Part shown: positions 4,801 to 9,307 of the stretch, piece after piece
Layout of the letters: each line of letters begins with the position of its first letter
How positions within the stretch are numbered: position 1 is the first letter of the stretch
DNA from: Desulfobacterales bacterium
Lineage (GTDB): Bacteria; Desulfobacterota; Desulfobacteria; Desulfobacterales; Desulfosalsimonadaceae
Assembly: GCA_018335195.1 (NCBI GenBank)
Contig: JAGXKN010000011.1
Location: 1-64,000, forward strand
DNA length: 64,000 bases
Direction of reading: 5' to 3'
Position numbers and translations under genes: made by a program
The notes under the pieces: generated by a model
What the model was told of the DNA's origin: nothing
Seen by the model: the letters and a program-made list of their open reading frames with translations, nothing else
The model's database searches: none

Positions 4801-5072
4801 CGACTGGACCCCTTTTTGACCGCTGCATGTTTGGATGTTGTAATGTCTTGCGCATACAAGATGATTGCAAAAAAGGTGCCGTTTTGTCACGGATTGCGGG
4901 CCAGGGTGTAATAACTTGAAATAAAGGGATTTGTGGAGCAGTCTTGAAGTCTGTGCCGTGACCGGGGCAGGCTGATCTGTGTCTTTTCGTATACAGCATG
5001 TTTACAAAAAGATAACGTGCGTCTTTCCGGAAACTGCCTCTCACCTCCGGACGGGGGCGGGCCGTGACGGTT

Positions 5073-6779
5073 TTATTTCCGGACTTTAATTTTTTGTCGG
5101 CCCATCATGATTTGCTTTTGTTTTTCGCGGCCCTTTGGATGTTTTTCCACGAACAGGGGCTGATTGCCGGGAAACGTCTTTTCCGTGTAATACATGAGCG
5201 TGGCCACAGTGGAGGGTCCGGGGGTAAAGATCTGTACCTGTTCCGGGATAAAGCCGAGCTCGCGGCGGGCAAATTCGCTTGCCGCCTGCATGTCCGCGGT
5301 TGTGGACCCGGGATAGGCGGCGATAAAATAGCAGGTCAGGTAGCGCCGGAGGTGTAACTTGCGATTGGTACGGGCAAACAGGGAGAGAAATTTTCGTGTT
5401 TCCTCGATCCGGGGCTTGCCCATGAGCGCCAGGATATGGTCCCGGCTGTGTTCCGGGGCGATTTTCAATTGCCCGGAGATGTGGCGGGAAACAAGCGCTT
5501 CAAGGTAAGCCCGGCCGGATTTATTGTCTGCAAGGATTAAATCGTGCCGGATGCCGGATCCGATAAACACGTGCCGGATCCCGGGAATTTGACGCAGCTT
5601 GTCCAGCAGTTCCACCTGGGGGGCGTGATTGACCGGCAGCTCGGTACAGGTTTTTTCCCCCACGCAGCGTCGGTTCCGGCAGGCCCCTTTCTCCGCCTTG
5701 CGGCGGCATTCCATCGCGTACATGTTGGCGCTTGGCCCGCCCACGTCTGAAATGATGCCCGTGAATTTTTGGTGACGGGTCAGGCCCCGGGCCTCCCGGA
5801 CAAGGGAGTCCTGGCTGCGGCTGATCACGGTTTTGCCCTGGTGCGCGGTAATGGCGCAGAAATGACATTCCCCGAAACACCCCCGATGCGTGATCAAAGA
5901 AAATCGGATGGTTTCCAAGGCCCGCAATTCGCCCTGGTCTGCATGCACGGGATGGGCCTCCCGCTTGAAGTCGAGTTCGTGCACCCGGTCCAGTTCGGGG
6001 CTGCTCAGGGGCGCCTGCGGCGGATTGCACACCAGGTATCGTGTGTCCTGCATCTGGCACAGGCCGCTTGCCTTTACCGGGTCCGTGTGCCTGTAAAAGG
6101 TTTCAAACATTTGCCGGAAAAGTTCCTTGTCCTTACTCACCCGGGCATGGGAGGGCAGTTCGACAAAGTTTTCAGGCTTTTGCCCGGAGATATAGCATAT
6201 GCCGCGCACGTCAGTGATATCGGCTTTCTGCTGTATTTTCCGGGCCAGTTCCAGTACGGTCTTTTCCCCCATCCCGTAGACCAGAATGTCTGCCTTGGCG
6301 TCAAACAGGATGCTGCGGCGGACCTTGTCGGCCCAGAAATCATAGTGGGAAATGCGGCGCAGGCTCGCCTCCATGCCCCCGAGGACCACGGGCCGCGTAT
6401 TTTTGTAATACCGGCGGATCAGGTTGGTATAGGCGATTGCGGCGCGGTCCGGCCGCAGGTTGTTGCGTCCCCCCGGGGTCAGGTCATCCTGTTGGCGCTT
6501 TTTCTTGTTGGCCGTGTAATTGGCCACCATGGAATCCATGCACCCGGCGGTCAAGCCCCAGAAAAGCTCGGGTTCTCCCAGGCGGCTAATTTCTTCGCTG
6601 CCGGACATATCCGGCTGGGCAATGATTCCGACCCGGTAGCCGGAATCCATCAGCACGTTGGCGATTACGGCAGCCCCGATATGCGGGGTGTCAATCCAGG
6701 CGTCACCGGTGACCAGTATGATATCAAGTCCCTGCCAGCCCATGTCCCGGACCTGTTTTTTTGTGGCGGGCGGAAACAT
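5073..6779 (-). CDS. YgiQ family radical SAM protein (UPF0313)
   Basis: This 568-residue radical SAM enzyme has the CxxxCxxC cluster at C301, C305 and C308 (GCFGECHFC). The family N-terminus FPPATKKQVRDMGWQGLDII and the ITGD-type signature are present. A second cysteine group (CRRKAEKGACRNRRC) follows the radical SAM core. The reaction catalysed by this widespread family is not established. The ATG at 6779 has AAAGGA seven bases upstream and matches the family N-terminus. It starts 10 bases after the stop of the RsmG-TrmH fusion gene, so the two are probably cotranscribed. Confidence 0.93.
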   Translation of the reverse strand: MFPPATKKQVRDMGWQGLDIILVTGDAWIDTPHIGAAVIANVLMDSGYRVGIIAQPDMSGSEEISRLGEPELFWGLTAGCMDSMVANYTANKKKRQQDDLTPGGRNNLRPDRAAIAYTNLIRRYYKNTRPVVLGGMEASLRRISHYDFWADKVRRSILFDAKADILVYGMGEKTVLELARKIQQKADITDVRGICYISGQKPENFVELPSHARVSKDKELFRQMFETFYRHTDPVKASGLCQMQDTRYLVCNPPQAPLSSPELDRVHELDFKREAHPVHADQGELRALETIRFSLITHRGCFGECHFCAITAHQGKTVISRSQDSLVREARGLTRHQKFTGIISDVGGPSANMYAMECRRKAEKGACRNRRCVGEKTCTELPVNHAPQVELLDKLRQIPGIRHVFIGSGIRHDLILADNKSGRAYLEALVSRHISGQLKIAPEHSRDHILALMGKPRIEETRKFLSLFARTNRKLHLRRYLTCYFIAAYPGSTTADMQAASEFARRELGFIPEQVQIFTPGPSTVATLMYYTEKTFPGNQPLFVEKHPKGREKQKQIMMGRQKIKVRK

Positions 6780-6789
6780 CAGCAGTCCT

Positions 6790-8262
6790 TTAAGTGCGTT
6801 TGTTCTGCGACCAGGCATACAGCGCGATCGCCGCGGCCGTGGCCGCATTGAGCGATTCGATTTCCGGCCGGATGGGGATCGAAACGGTTTTTTGCCGCAG
6901 GTGCCCGGGCAGGCCAGGGCCTTCCATACCCGGCAGCAGGGCAAAGGTTTTTGGAAAGTCAAATTCCGCAATCGGCGTGCCTTCCGCGGAAAGGGCGACA
7001 ATGGGGATATTGCCGGGCAATTCATAGATCGATGGGCCCTGCATCAAGCGTGCATGCATCACTGCGCCGCCGGAGGCGCGCACAGCCTTGGGGTGAAAGG
7101 GATGGGCCGATTCTGCCAGCAAAATGATTGTGTCTGCACCGAATGCCGCTGCAGATCGGATAACCGTGCCCACGTTTTCCGGGTCCTGGAACGGCAACAG
7201 TACGCTGCATCCTTCGGGCAGTCCGCCTTCCGGGTCCCAGCCGGAGAGGTCCGACGTTTTCACCAGCAGCAGGGGCGCGTCCGTGCCGATGACGTCCAGG
7301 TCATCAAAGAGCCCGGGCTCAAGCTGGTACCAATGCGCATGCGCAGGCAGGTCTTCAGGGGGCGGCCACTTGTCGGATTTCGAGATCCAGGCCAGGCATT
7401 GTTGCGCAAAAGCGGTCATGATTTCCCGGACCTGTCGGCTGCCGGAAATCATGGCGCGTCCCTGCTTTTTGGCCCCCCTGCTGGTGAGCAGTTTTTTCAG
7501 TTCCTTGAAGGTCTGGTTCTGCCGGCTTTCCACGGTGCGCACGGCGTGTTTTTCCATGGCGTTTTCCCTGTGCTGGTGAAGCGGTGGGTCCTTGCGTTCA
7601 AATATGACCAGGCGACGGTGATGGGGCGTATGCGGAATTCGGTAGGCAATGTCGCCGGCCGGCCGGAATCGGTCTTCTGCGGCCTGTGCGGCTTCGGCGG
7701 CTTCCGCATCGCAGCCCGGGCCCTTCATGAAAATCGCCCGGCCCCCGCTGCGAAGGCAGCCCCGGATGCGGGGCAGGGTTTTTCCCATGTGTTCCACGGC
7801 CCGGGAGATCACACCGGCAACCGGAATTTGGCAGGAAGGCGTGACCGCATGAGCGTATACCCGGATGCCGGAAAGTCCGAGTTCGTGGATCGCGTCTTTT
7901 AAGAATGCCACCCTGTTCTGCCGGCTTTCTGCAAGTATCATTTCGATTTCGGGCCGGGCGATTTTCAGCGGGATGCCCGGCATGCCGGCGCCGGTGCCTA
8001 TATCCAGCAGGGGCGAGGGCAGGTCCGTGAGCTGGGCGGGCAGGATGGAATCCGCGTACAGCTTGAGCACCATGTTTTCGAACCTGTGAATCCGGGTGAG
8101 GTTTAATTCCGGATTGTACCGGCGCAGCAGGTTGTGGTACTGCCATAACAGTTCCACTTGCCGCCGGGTCAGTTCAATGCCGCAGCGGCGCAGCACCCGG
8201 TCCATGTCCGAGGGCGTATAATCCTTCTGTCCGGCAGATATTTGCGGGGGTTTCTTTTTCAT
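6790..8262 (-). CDS. fused RsmG (16S rRNA m7G527) and TrmH-type RNA methyltransferase
   Basis: A single 490-codon frame joins two RNA methyltransferases. Residues 1-225 are RsmG/GidB, with the SAM motif LLDIGTGAGMPGIPL at 85-99, which methylates N7 of G527 in 16S rRNA. Residues 236-490 are a SpoU/TrmH SPOUT enzyme with motif 1 (PENVGTVIRSAAAFG, 361-375), motif 2 (GMEGPG) and motif 3 (SLNAATAAAIALYAW). SPOUT enzymes usually 2'-O-methylate ribose. An internal ATG at 7557 (M236) has AGGGAAA upstream, so a free TrmH could also be made. The start codon lies one base from the divergent RluA gene. No stop or frameshift separates the two halves. Confidence 0.88.
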   Translation of the reverse strand: MKKKPPQISAGQKDYTPSDMDRVLRRCGIELTRRQVELLWQYHNLLRRYNPELNLTRIHRFENMVLKLYADSILPAQLTDLPSPLLDIGTGAGMPGIPLKIARPEIEMILAESRQNRVAFLKDAIHELGLSGIRVYAHAVTPSCQIPVAGVISRAVEHMGKTLPRIRGCLRSGGRAIFMKGPGCDAEAAEAAQAAEDRFRPAGDIAYRIPHTPHHRRLVIFERKDPPLHQHRENAMEKHAVRTVESRQNQTFKELKKLLTSRGAKKQGRAMISGSRQVREIMTAFAQQCLAWISKSDKWPPPEDLPAHAHWYQLEPGLFDDLDVIGTDAPLLLVKTSDLSGWDPEGGLPEGCSVLLPFQDPENVGTVIRSAAAFGADTIILLAESAHPFHPKAVRASGGAVMHARLMQGPSIYELPGNIPIVALSAEGTPIAEFDFPKTFALLPGMEGPGLPGHLRQKTVSIPIRPEIESLNAATAAAIALYAWSQNKRT

Positions 8263-8263
8263 T

Positions 8264-9016
8264 ATGAGCGATTCAGAGACATTTTTCTTTATCCGGAGCT
8301 GGCCGGTTTTTTATGAAGACAACCATCTTCTGGTTGTGTATAAACCATCCGGCCTGCTGATACAAGGCGATCGTAGCAAAGATGTTTCTTTGCTGGACCT
8401 GGCTAGGCGCTGGATAAAGCGTCGTTACCAGAAACCGGGAAACGTTTTTCTGTCCCTGGTGCACCGGCTGGACCGGCCGGTGGCCGGCGTGACGGCCTTT
8501 GCCCGTACCTCCAAGGCCGCCTCCCGGCTCAGCGAGCAGTTTCGTACCAATACGGTGAAAAAGCAGTACGTGGCCGTGGTCGAAGGCGTGGTTCCGGATG
8601 CCGCCGGCGAGCTCGTAAATTCCATGGAGCGCCGCGGCCCCACAAGCCGCATTCTGCATGCACCAACGGCAAAAAGTCAAGAAGCAAGGCTTTCCTACAG
8701 GGTGCTGGATGCCGGAGAAAAGCGCAGTTTTCTGGAAATCGACCTGCACTCCGGCCGGCATCACCAGATCCGGGCCCAGCTTGCGCACATGGGTTTTCCG
8801 GTGCTCGGCGATCTGCGCTACGGCGGCAGCAAGCCTCTGCCCCAAAAGCAGTTGGCCCTGTTTGCCCGCAGCCTGTCTTTTATCCATCCCACCCGGAAAT
8901 CCCGTATGGCCTTTTCCTGTCCGCTGCCCGCGGGCTGGCCCTGGCCGGATATCGCCAACACGCCCGATGCCCCGCCCTGGAACTGGCAGGACCTGCAGCC
9001 GGAGTTGGATTTATAG
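8264..9016 (+). CDS. RluA-family pseudouridine synthase
   Basis: This 250-residue RluA-type enzyme converts specific uridines in rRNA or tRNA to pseudouridine. The catalytic aspartate is D70 in HRLDRPVAG (67-75), and GRHHQIRAQLAHMGFPVLGD follows in the C-terminal half. It has no S4 domain, so it is closer to RluA/TruC-type than to RluD. Its start codon abuts the start of the divergent RsmG-TrmH gene, so its ribosome binding site (GGGGG, about 13 bases upstream) lies inside that gene. The target RNA cannot be assigned. The two neighbours suggest an RNA-modification group. Confidence 0.9.
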   Translation: MSDSETFFFIRSWPVFYEDNHLLVVYKPSGLLIQGDRSKDVSLLDLARRWIKRRYQKPGNVFLSLVHRLDRPVAGVTAFARTSKAASRLSEQFRTNTVKKQYVAVVEGVVPDAAGELVNSMERRGPTSRILHAPTAKSQEARLSYRVLDAGEKRSFLEIDLHSGRHHQIRAQLAHMGFPVLGDLRYGGSKPLPQKQLALFARSLSFIHPTRKSRMAFSCPLPAGWPWPDIANTPDAPPWNWQDLQPELDL

Positions 9017-9034
9017 TTTTTCTTCCGTAGCGCC

Positions 9035-9090
9035 CGAATCGGTATCGGGAACGAAATCGAAAAAAAATCCGATCCCGACAAAGAATTGGC
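9035..9090. repeat. interspersed AATCGGTATCGG repeat, copy 2
   Basis: Contains GAATCGGTATCGGGAACG, then GAAATCGAAA, then AATCCGATCCCGACAA. The two ends are partly complementary (ATCGG and CCGAT), so the unit can fold. The same order of blocks is seen at 9549-9600. Confidence 0.6.
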
Positions 9091-9307
9091 GGTTAATTGC
9101 TGTTGCTTTTCAATTCCGTTGTGCTCTGCAAAAAAATCGATTCTACCCGGGTTTTCGCAGGGTCGGGCCGGCGGGGAAGTTTGCGCATATGCCGTCCGCT
9201 TTCGCGCCCGATGCATCTGCGCAAATCACCCCGCCGTCCCGCCCTGTTCAACCCCTTGGGCAGCTTCCCCTATCTAATTTCGGGAATCTTTAAAAACCCC
9301 GGCGTAG

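Follow-up and report, generated by a model that had tools for sequence, protein, structure and literature searches.

The question raised by this locus is whether a polypeptide joining an RsmG-like domain to a TrmH/SpoU-like domain is real and, if so, what it does. It lies in a 64,000-nucleotide stretch of a Desulfobacterales genome (hereafter the window), for which a first-pass annotation had described one uninterrupted 490-codon frame with all RsmG motifs followed by all three SPOUT motifs, and had suggested that two RNA methylations may be linked in one protein. The frame was borne out: it has no internal stop and runs on the minus strand, which the annotation had left unstated, while the plus-strand reading of the same interval is interrupted by stops. 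Both Pfam matches, to the GidB and SpoU_methylase domains, score far above their cut-offs, and the AlphaFold model of the fusion has a mean pLDDT of 90.9 and a pTM of 0.76 (Table 1). A promoter and terminator scan of positions 4900-9300 gave no signal exceeding that of shuffled sequences.

Table 1. Features of the fusion gene and its neighborhood, in window coordinates.
Feature	Positions	Strand	Basis or remarks
Fusion gene, RsmG-type + TrmH-type SPOUT	6790..8262	minus	490 aa, ATG start, stop TAA at 6790-6792
RsmG/GidB-type class I methyltransferase domain, residues 36-194	7681..8157	minus	PF02527, 6.7e-31, 107.5 bits
SAM-binding motif I DIGTGAGMPGIP, residues 87-98	7969..8004	minus	D87, G89, G91, G93, P95, G96 invariant in 38 fusions
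Loop following strand beta-3 (shortened), residues 137-147, at the site of R-x-E in free RsmG	7822..7854	minus	alignment
Interdomain linker helix, residues 226-240	7543..7587	minus	AlphaFold model helix 228-238, pLDDT about 90
Internal ATG (Met236) at which a free SPOUT protein may start	7555..7557	minus	first base 7557
L30e-like RNA-binding subdomain of the SPOUT half, residues ~241-345	7228..7542	minus	structural match to RlmP/RlmR/MRM3
SPOUT (SpoU/TrmH) catalytic domain, residues 354-482	6817..7203	minus	PF00588, 1.4e-26, 93.7 bits
SPOUT motif I, N363 to R369	7156..7176	minus	N363, G365, R369 invariant in 38 aligned fusions
SPOUT motif II, G445 to G450	6913..6930	minus	G445, E447, G448, G450 invariant in 38 aligned fusions
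SPOUT motif III, S470-L-N472	6847..6855	minus	invariant in 38 aligned fusions; equivalents S236/N238 of RlmR
RluA-family pseudouridine synthase gene, divergent	8264..9016	plus	PF00849, 7.1e-33
YgiQ-family radical SAM protein	5073..6779	minus	TIGR03904, 747.7 bits

The search for the same domain order in relatives, which the first-pass annotation had proposed, recovered a full-length, stop-free fusion in 18 of 60 relatives, with a 19th interrupted by a contig edge. A scan of species genomes confirmed 120 loci, and the best 80 of these, all from other genomes, are without exception full-length open fusions, with identities of 45-91%; they belong to Desulfobacterota, some of whose records are titled only Deltaproteobacteria, and to Planctomycetota (Isosphaeraceae, Kuenenia and others). 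As relatives share the fusion, the two explanations to which separate genes in relatives would have pointed, a sequencing error and a recent lineage-specific fusion, are excluded. The more general possibility that an artefact of sequencing or assembly joined two genes is contradicted by independent assemblies and by the complete chromosomes NZ_AP021874, NZ_AP021875 and NC_019892, and we give it practically no weight. The window's order was sampled evenly, and 20 of the 146 genomes carry the fusion, each checked as such; dN is well under dS in both halves in all four pairs of relatives compared. Thus, the fusion is a real, old and conserved two-domain RNA methyltransferase.

Among 108 sampled Planctomycetota genomes, the centre genome (Singulisphaera) has the fusion; eight long RsmG frames of 417-971 aa (L188-L195) considered as further fusions in that phylum were rejected, there being no SPOUT domain inside them. 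Matches were found to 43 plasmid records, none of which covers 80% of the query, and seven of the eight among the matches listed comprise the SPOUT half only. Two features of individual loci may be recorded here: L109 has a second SPOUT fragment at 6418-7158 (query residues 390-474), about 1 kb after the fusion and perhaps a duplicated or broken copy, and in L062, L088 and L103 the fusion sits inside stop-free frames of 846-951 aa, which probably reflect high G+C rather than a third domain.

We then examined the amino-terminal half. On the NCBIfam equivalog model TIGR00138 (cut-off 99.5 bits) the full fusion scores 107.5 bits and this half alone 109.7, both passing, and model residues 14-230 match the RsmG fold of Bacillus subtilis, Thermus thermophilus and Escherichia coli with Z-scores of 23.6, 22.9 and 22.5. 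Along with the fold, it has in common with RsmG (GidB), the 16S rRNA m7G527 methyltransferase, SAM motif I, R139 and K165-G166 (E. coli numbering here and below): motif I (D71, G73, G75, G77, P79), R139 and K165 are kept in all 51 fused rows of our alignment, and motif I, E/D96, R139, K165-G166 and R197 in all 56 rows of a subfamily that also includes five unfused Planctomycetota proteins. However, the first-pass statement that all RsmG motifs are present does not hold, since the R-x-E motif (R123/E125) is missing: all 51 fused rows show a gap in the E125 column, and so do the five unfused ones, whereas free RsmG rows have the arginine in 63 of 64 cases and the glutamate in 62. These counts refer to the aligned column, which was used in place of a plain text search for R.E in the aligned segment, which also picked up eight of the 51 fused rows and overlooked three of the 64 free ones. 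The loop is likewise remodeled, with the interval from L114 to R139 spanning exactly 24 residues in 56 of 56 subfamily rows as against a median of 29 (range 25-48, n=64) in free RsmG, a shortening of about five residues. In RsmG, E125 and its neighbor carry annotations as SAM contacts, and the R-x-E site presumably corresponds to motif III of class I enzymes, which contacts the adenine, and so forms part of the SAM adenine pocket; with the motif missing throughout the subfamily, the amino-terminal half could therefore be inactive or changed.

Phylogenetic analysis of the RsmG domain is in line with this distinctness. A tree of 120 rows places the 51 fused and the five unfused Planctomycetota proteins together on one side of a branch with support of 99.9, opposite 64 free RsmG rows from both phyla and E. 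coli, and one state change suffices for the fused rows. For this tree and the motif counts the long branches L190, L193, L204 and L207 were removed, L191 was replaced by the same gene in L218, and the new free rows L220, L223, L224 and L231 were omitted. An earlier tree of 113 rows, which included one of the five unfused proteins and from which near-duplicates had first been dropped (fused above 72% and free above 85% identity, leaving 51 fused), recovered the fused clade with support of 80. Judging from alignment and trees, then, the fused half is best described as a separate RsmG subfamily lacking R-x-E and not as the lineage's housekeeping RsmG. The branch splitting the fused rows from the five unfused proteins is weak (21), and on that account fission remains conceivable for the latter, which may thus be derived from fused ancestors. 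The SPOUT halves likewise form one clade (support 97/99, with 19 of the 38 aligned fusions used). The simplest reading of these trees would be a single fusion event followed by transfer between the phyla, in either direction. In Planctomycetota both components also occur separately, as unfused proteins of the RsmG subfamily and as free relatives of the SPOUT half; an ancestral pair, with an unfused subfamily gene beside a free SPOUT gene, was not found in the five loci searched (L214-L218).

In the carboxy-terminal half the claim of three complete SPOUT motifs proved correct, motifs I (N..G..R), II (G.EG.G) and III (SLN) showing no variation across the 38 aligned fusions. The whole chains of RlmP (Z 23.7) and RlmR (Z 23.4) can be aligned to model residues 240-490, with 31% and 30% identity respectively over nearly the whole half, and further matches are a Sinorhizobium rRNA methyltransferase (Z 23.4), AviRb (22.8) and MRM3 (20.5). 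On TIGR00186, the model for RlmB (Gm2251), the fusion scores 59.5 bits, below the cut-off of 160.15. Among the families compared, the SPOUT half therefore most closely resembles RlmP and RlmR, enzymes of the 23S rRNA A-loop. According to one study, RlmR makes Um2552 and RlmP and MRM3 make Gm2553, an L30-like domain precedes the SPOUT domain in all of them, and Arg128, Ser236 and Asn238 are the catalytic residues of RlmR (PMC12123411). By motif, R369, S470 and N472 of the fusion correspond to these three residues and would be their counterparts; the catalytic arginine and the motif III serine and asparagine are thus in common with T. thermophilus RlmR (23S Um2552), and the L30e-like plus SPOUT architecture over its whole length, together with motifs I-III, with B. 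subtilis RlmP (YsgA; 23S Gm2553) and human MRM3. RlmP is a free protein, unlike the fused half, and the tree gives no specific placement with it: at 31% identity to RlmP, the fused clade is the only group that the tree resolves, it joins no single characterized enzyme, and the tree carries a long-branch warning. The match to AviRb, a methyltransferase of antibiotic resistance, is almost as good, and this counts against assigning an A-loop role.

Within the A-loop, U2552 is probably not the target, because an RlmE-type enzyme is already present in 19 of the 20 order-sample carriers (matches with E of 4.8e-48 or lower), which sets the fusion apart from RlmR; family resemblance would make G2553 or a nearby site more likely. 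For the same reason replacement of RlmE by the fusion was rejected as a general rule. Strong RlmE-type matches occur in 140 of the 146 order genomes, none of them over the curated cut-off of 300 bits. In the window's own genome (G000; 3.29 Mb, 99 contigs, 99.7% complete) no RlmE-type enzyme was found (best match 3.3e-4), its FtsJ match being TlyA; this genome has no GidB gene besides the fusion and three further SpoU genes, which by NCBIfam are RlmB-like (204.6 bits, over one cut-off), TrmH-like (best match, under the cut-off) and TrmJ-like (subfamily cut-off passed).

We further asked how the fusion relates to the ordinary RsmG of its carriers. A free RsmG accompanies it in 16 of the 20 carriers of the order sample, so that the fusion is unlikely to be the sole m7G527 enzyme there. 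It is the only RsmG in the other four (G000, G007, G016, G143), and 16 of 126 non-carriers have no RsmG over the cut-off; loss of RsmG is thus no commoner in carriers (Fisher p 0.48), and replacement of the free RsmG by the fusion is unsupported in the window's order. A second set of 25 carriers was chosen from the best 80 of 120 loci. Ten belong to the Planctomycetota side (nine by record title or name, and L105, whose title reads just 'bacterium'), and 15 do not. All ten of the former have no other RsmG over the cut-off, and 12 of the latter 15 have both the fusion and a free RsmG. By coordinates, four of the 15 recur in the order sample (three with both genes and one carrying just the fusion), which means that the two samples overlap and are not wholly independent. 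In Desulfobacterota the fusion is redundant, at least in part, or different, and in Isosphaeraceae it may do the job of RsmG. RsmG is regarded as highly conserved, yet no RsmG exceeds the cut-off in 16 of the 146 order-sample genomes of at least 90% completeness. The free RsmG genes of one genus of the order, g49 (L167, L183-L186), lie in open frames of 323-380 aa with about 100 extra residues on the N side.

In a gene-neighborhood analysis of the best 80 of 120 loci, 51 of the 55 from outside Planctomycetota proved to have an RluA-family gene adjoining the fusion and oriented oppositely to it: our script placed it upstream in 49, but not in L072 and L079, where a long opposite-strand frame overlaps the fusion. 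The misses are L041 and L071, with under 450 bases of upstream sequence, and L064 and L081, where about 4 kb is available and the gene is absent. The nearest solved relatives of this synthase are named large-subunit synthases. No RluA-family gene occurs in the available flank of the other 25 loci, 18 of which were compared and share one recurring neighbor in about a dozen cases, presumably a MoaB/MogA-like gene going by its sequence. The YgiQ-family gene, whose probable start at ATG 6779, ten bases past the fusion stop, is suggested by AAAGGA-N6-ATG, is a neighbor in only five of the 80. At 8260-8266 of the window the start codons of the fusion and the RluA-type gene stand one base apart on opposite strands, too close for each gene to have a promoter or ribosome site of its own; either gene may instead have its start further inside.

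Based on these observations, we propose, at slightly better than even confidence, that the gene product is one bifunctional rRNA methyltransferase, similar in principle to E. coli RlmKL (YcbY), which likewise has two rRNA methyltransferases in one chain; its targets are put forward from family membership. The earlier idea of two RNA methylations in one polypeptide thus stands insofar as two folds are joined and conserved, with SAM and catalytic residues largely kept, and falls short in that the amino-terminal half is not housekeeping RsmG. The SPOUT half would dimerize and 2'-O-methylate a 23S rRNA nucleotide, most likely in or near the A-loop and at G2553 rather than U2552, by means of Arg369 and Ser470/Asn472. 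The amino-terminal half would N7-methylate an rRNA guanine: in genomes with no other RsmG most likely 16S G527, and possibly another guanine where it coexists with the ordinary enzyme. Fusion would supply equal amounts of two early-acting rRNA modifiers, with one SPOUT dimer carrying two RsmG domains. It counts against such a bifunctional enzyme that targets divided between two different subunits would, to our knowledge, be out of the ordinary for a fused enzyme.

Alternatively, the amino-terminal half could be active and retargeted to a 23S guanine near the SPOUT target, the fusion and its RluA-type neighbor then constituting a large-subunit modification module. The distinctness of the subfamily, its remodeled loop, its coexistence with ordinary RsmG and the conserved divergent pairing with a synthase related to large-subunit enzymes all favor this, as does the precedent of RlmKL, whose marks are m7G2069 and m2G2445 (PMC4119055). 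However, the 23S target is hypothetical, no second RsmG reaches the cut-off in the ten Planctomycetota-side carriers and the fusion itself passes the RsmG equivalog cut-off, such that we regard retargeting as a serious possibility but a rather unlikely one. Somewhat more doubtful is that the SPOUT half alone is catalytic, the RsmG half having lost N7-methylation along with R-x-E to serve as an RNA-binding or assembly-timing module: the invariable loss of the motif, the fixed short loop in 56 of 56 rows and the ordinary RsmG in most order-sample carriers speak for this, yet the remaining SAM-binding and conserved positions from motif I to R197 persist in every subfamily row, dN/dS of this half is low (about 0.2-0.3) and the ten Planctomycetota-side carriers have no free RsmG over the cut-off. 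In a fuller scenario, a hitherto undescribed RsmG subfamily would have rebuilt its SAM-adenine loop, been joined a single time to a SPOUT enzyme of the A-loop type and been retargeted to a new guanine; in Desulfobacterota the fusion and the RluA-type synthase would together install a set of large-subunit rRNA modifications, and in Isosphaeraceae the fusion would have taken over from ordinary RsmG. Taken as a whole we consider this scenario improbable, if worth stating.

Compatible with any of these readings is internal initiation at 7557, by which some free SPOUT protein would be made besides the fusion, as the first-pass annotation had suggested from an ATG preceded by AGGGAAA. Both elements are present. 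A methionine occupies this position in 29 of 81 loci (the window plus the best 80 of 120) and is absent from 52. Predicted anti-Shine-Dalgarno pairing at these sites, -5.3 kcal/mol, exceeds that at 647 other internal in-frame ATGs (-3.1 kcal/mol, p 8e-7), and synonymous recoding gave a mean of -4.2 kcal/mol with 2 of 500 simulated means as low, p-values which are too small because the loci are related. The window's own site is unremarkable by itself (0.148 in the synonymous control, with 21% of other ATGs as good). The signal above controls thus hints at a free SPOUT product, possibly in part of Desulfobacterota, even as its general occurrence appears unlikely from the loci devoid of the methionine.

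Enzymes that modify rRNA are seldom fused, and where they are, this usually indicates that the two marks belong to one assembly step. Both halves of RlmKL are class I domains; in the present fusion, by contrast, one half is class I and the other SPOUT, with unrelated folds. Literature searches aimed at the fusion found no description in titles and abstract openings, subscription journals being mostly outside their coverage. The two-methyltransferase principle is known from RlmKL; the combination of an RsmG subfamily of class I and a SPOUT domain of the A-loop type appeared in none of the literature searched. The fusion unites two unrelated methyltransferase folds and has been kept in two phyla, and its RsmG subfamily breaks a motif that is otherwise nearly universal in housekeeping RsmG. 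Annotation pipelines that accept it as RsmG may hence predict m7G527 wrongly in its carriers. The presence of the fusion in named strains (Singulisphaera, Desulfosarcina, Desulfacinum) makes the question of what its two halves modify a testable one.
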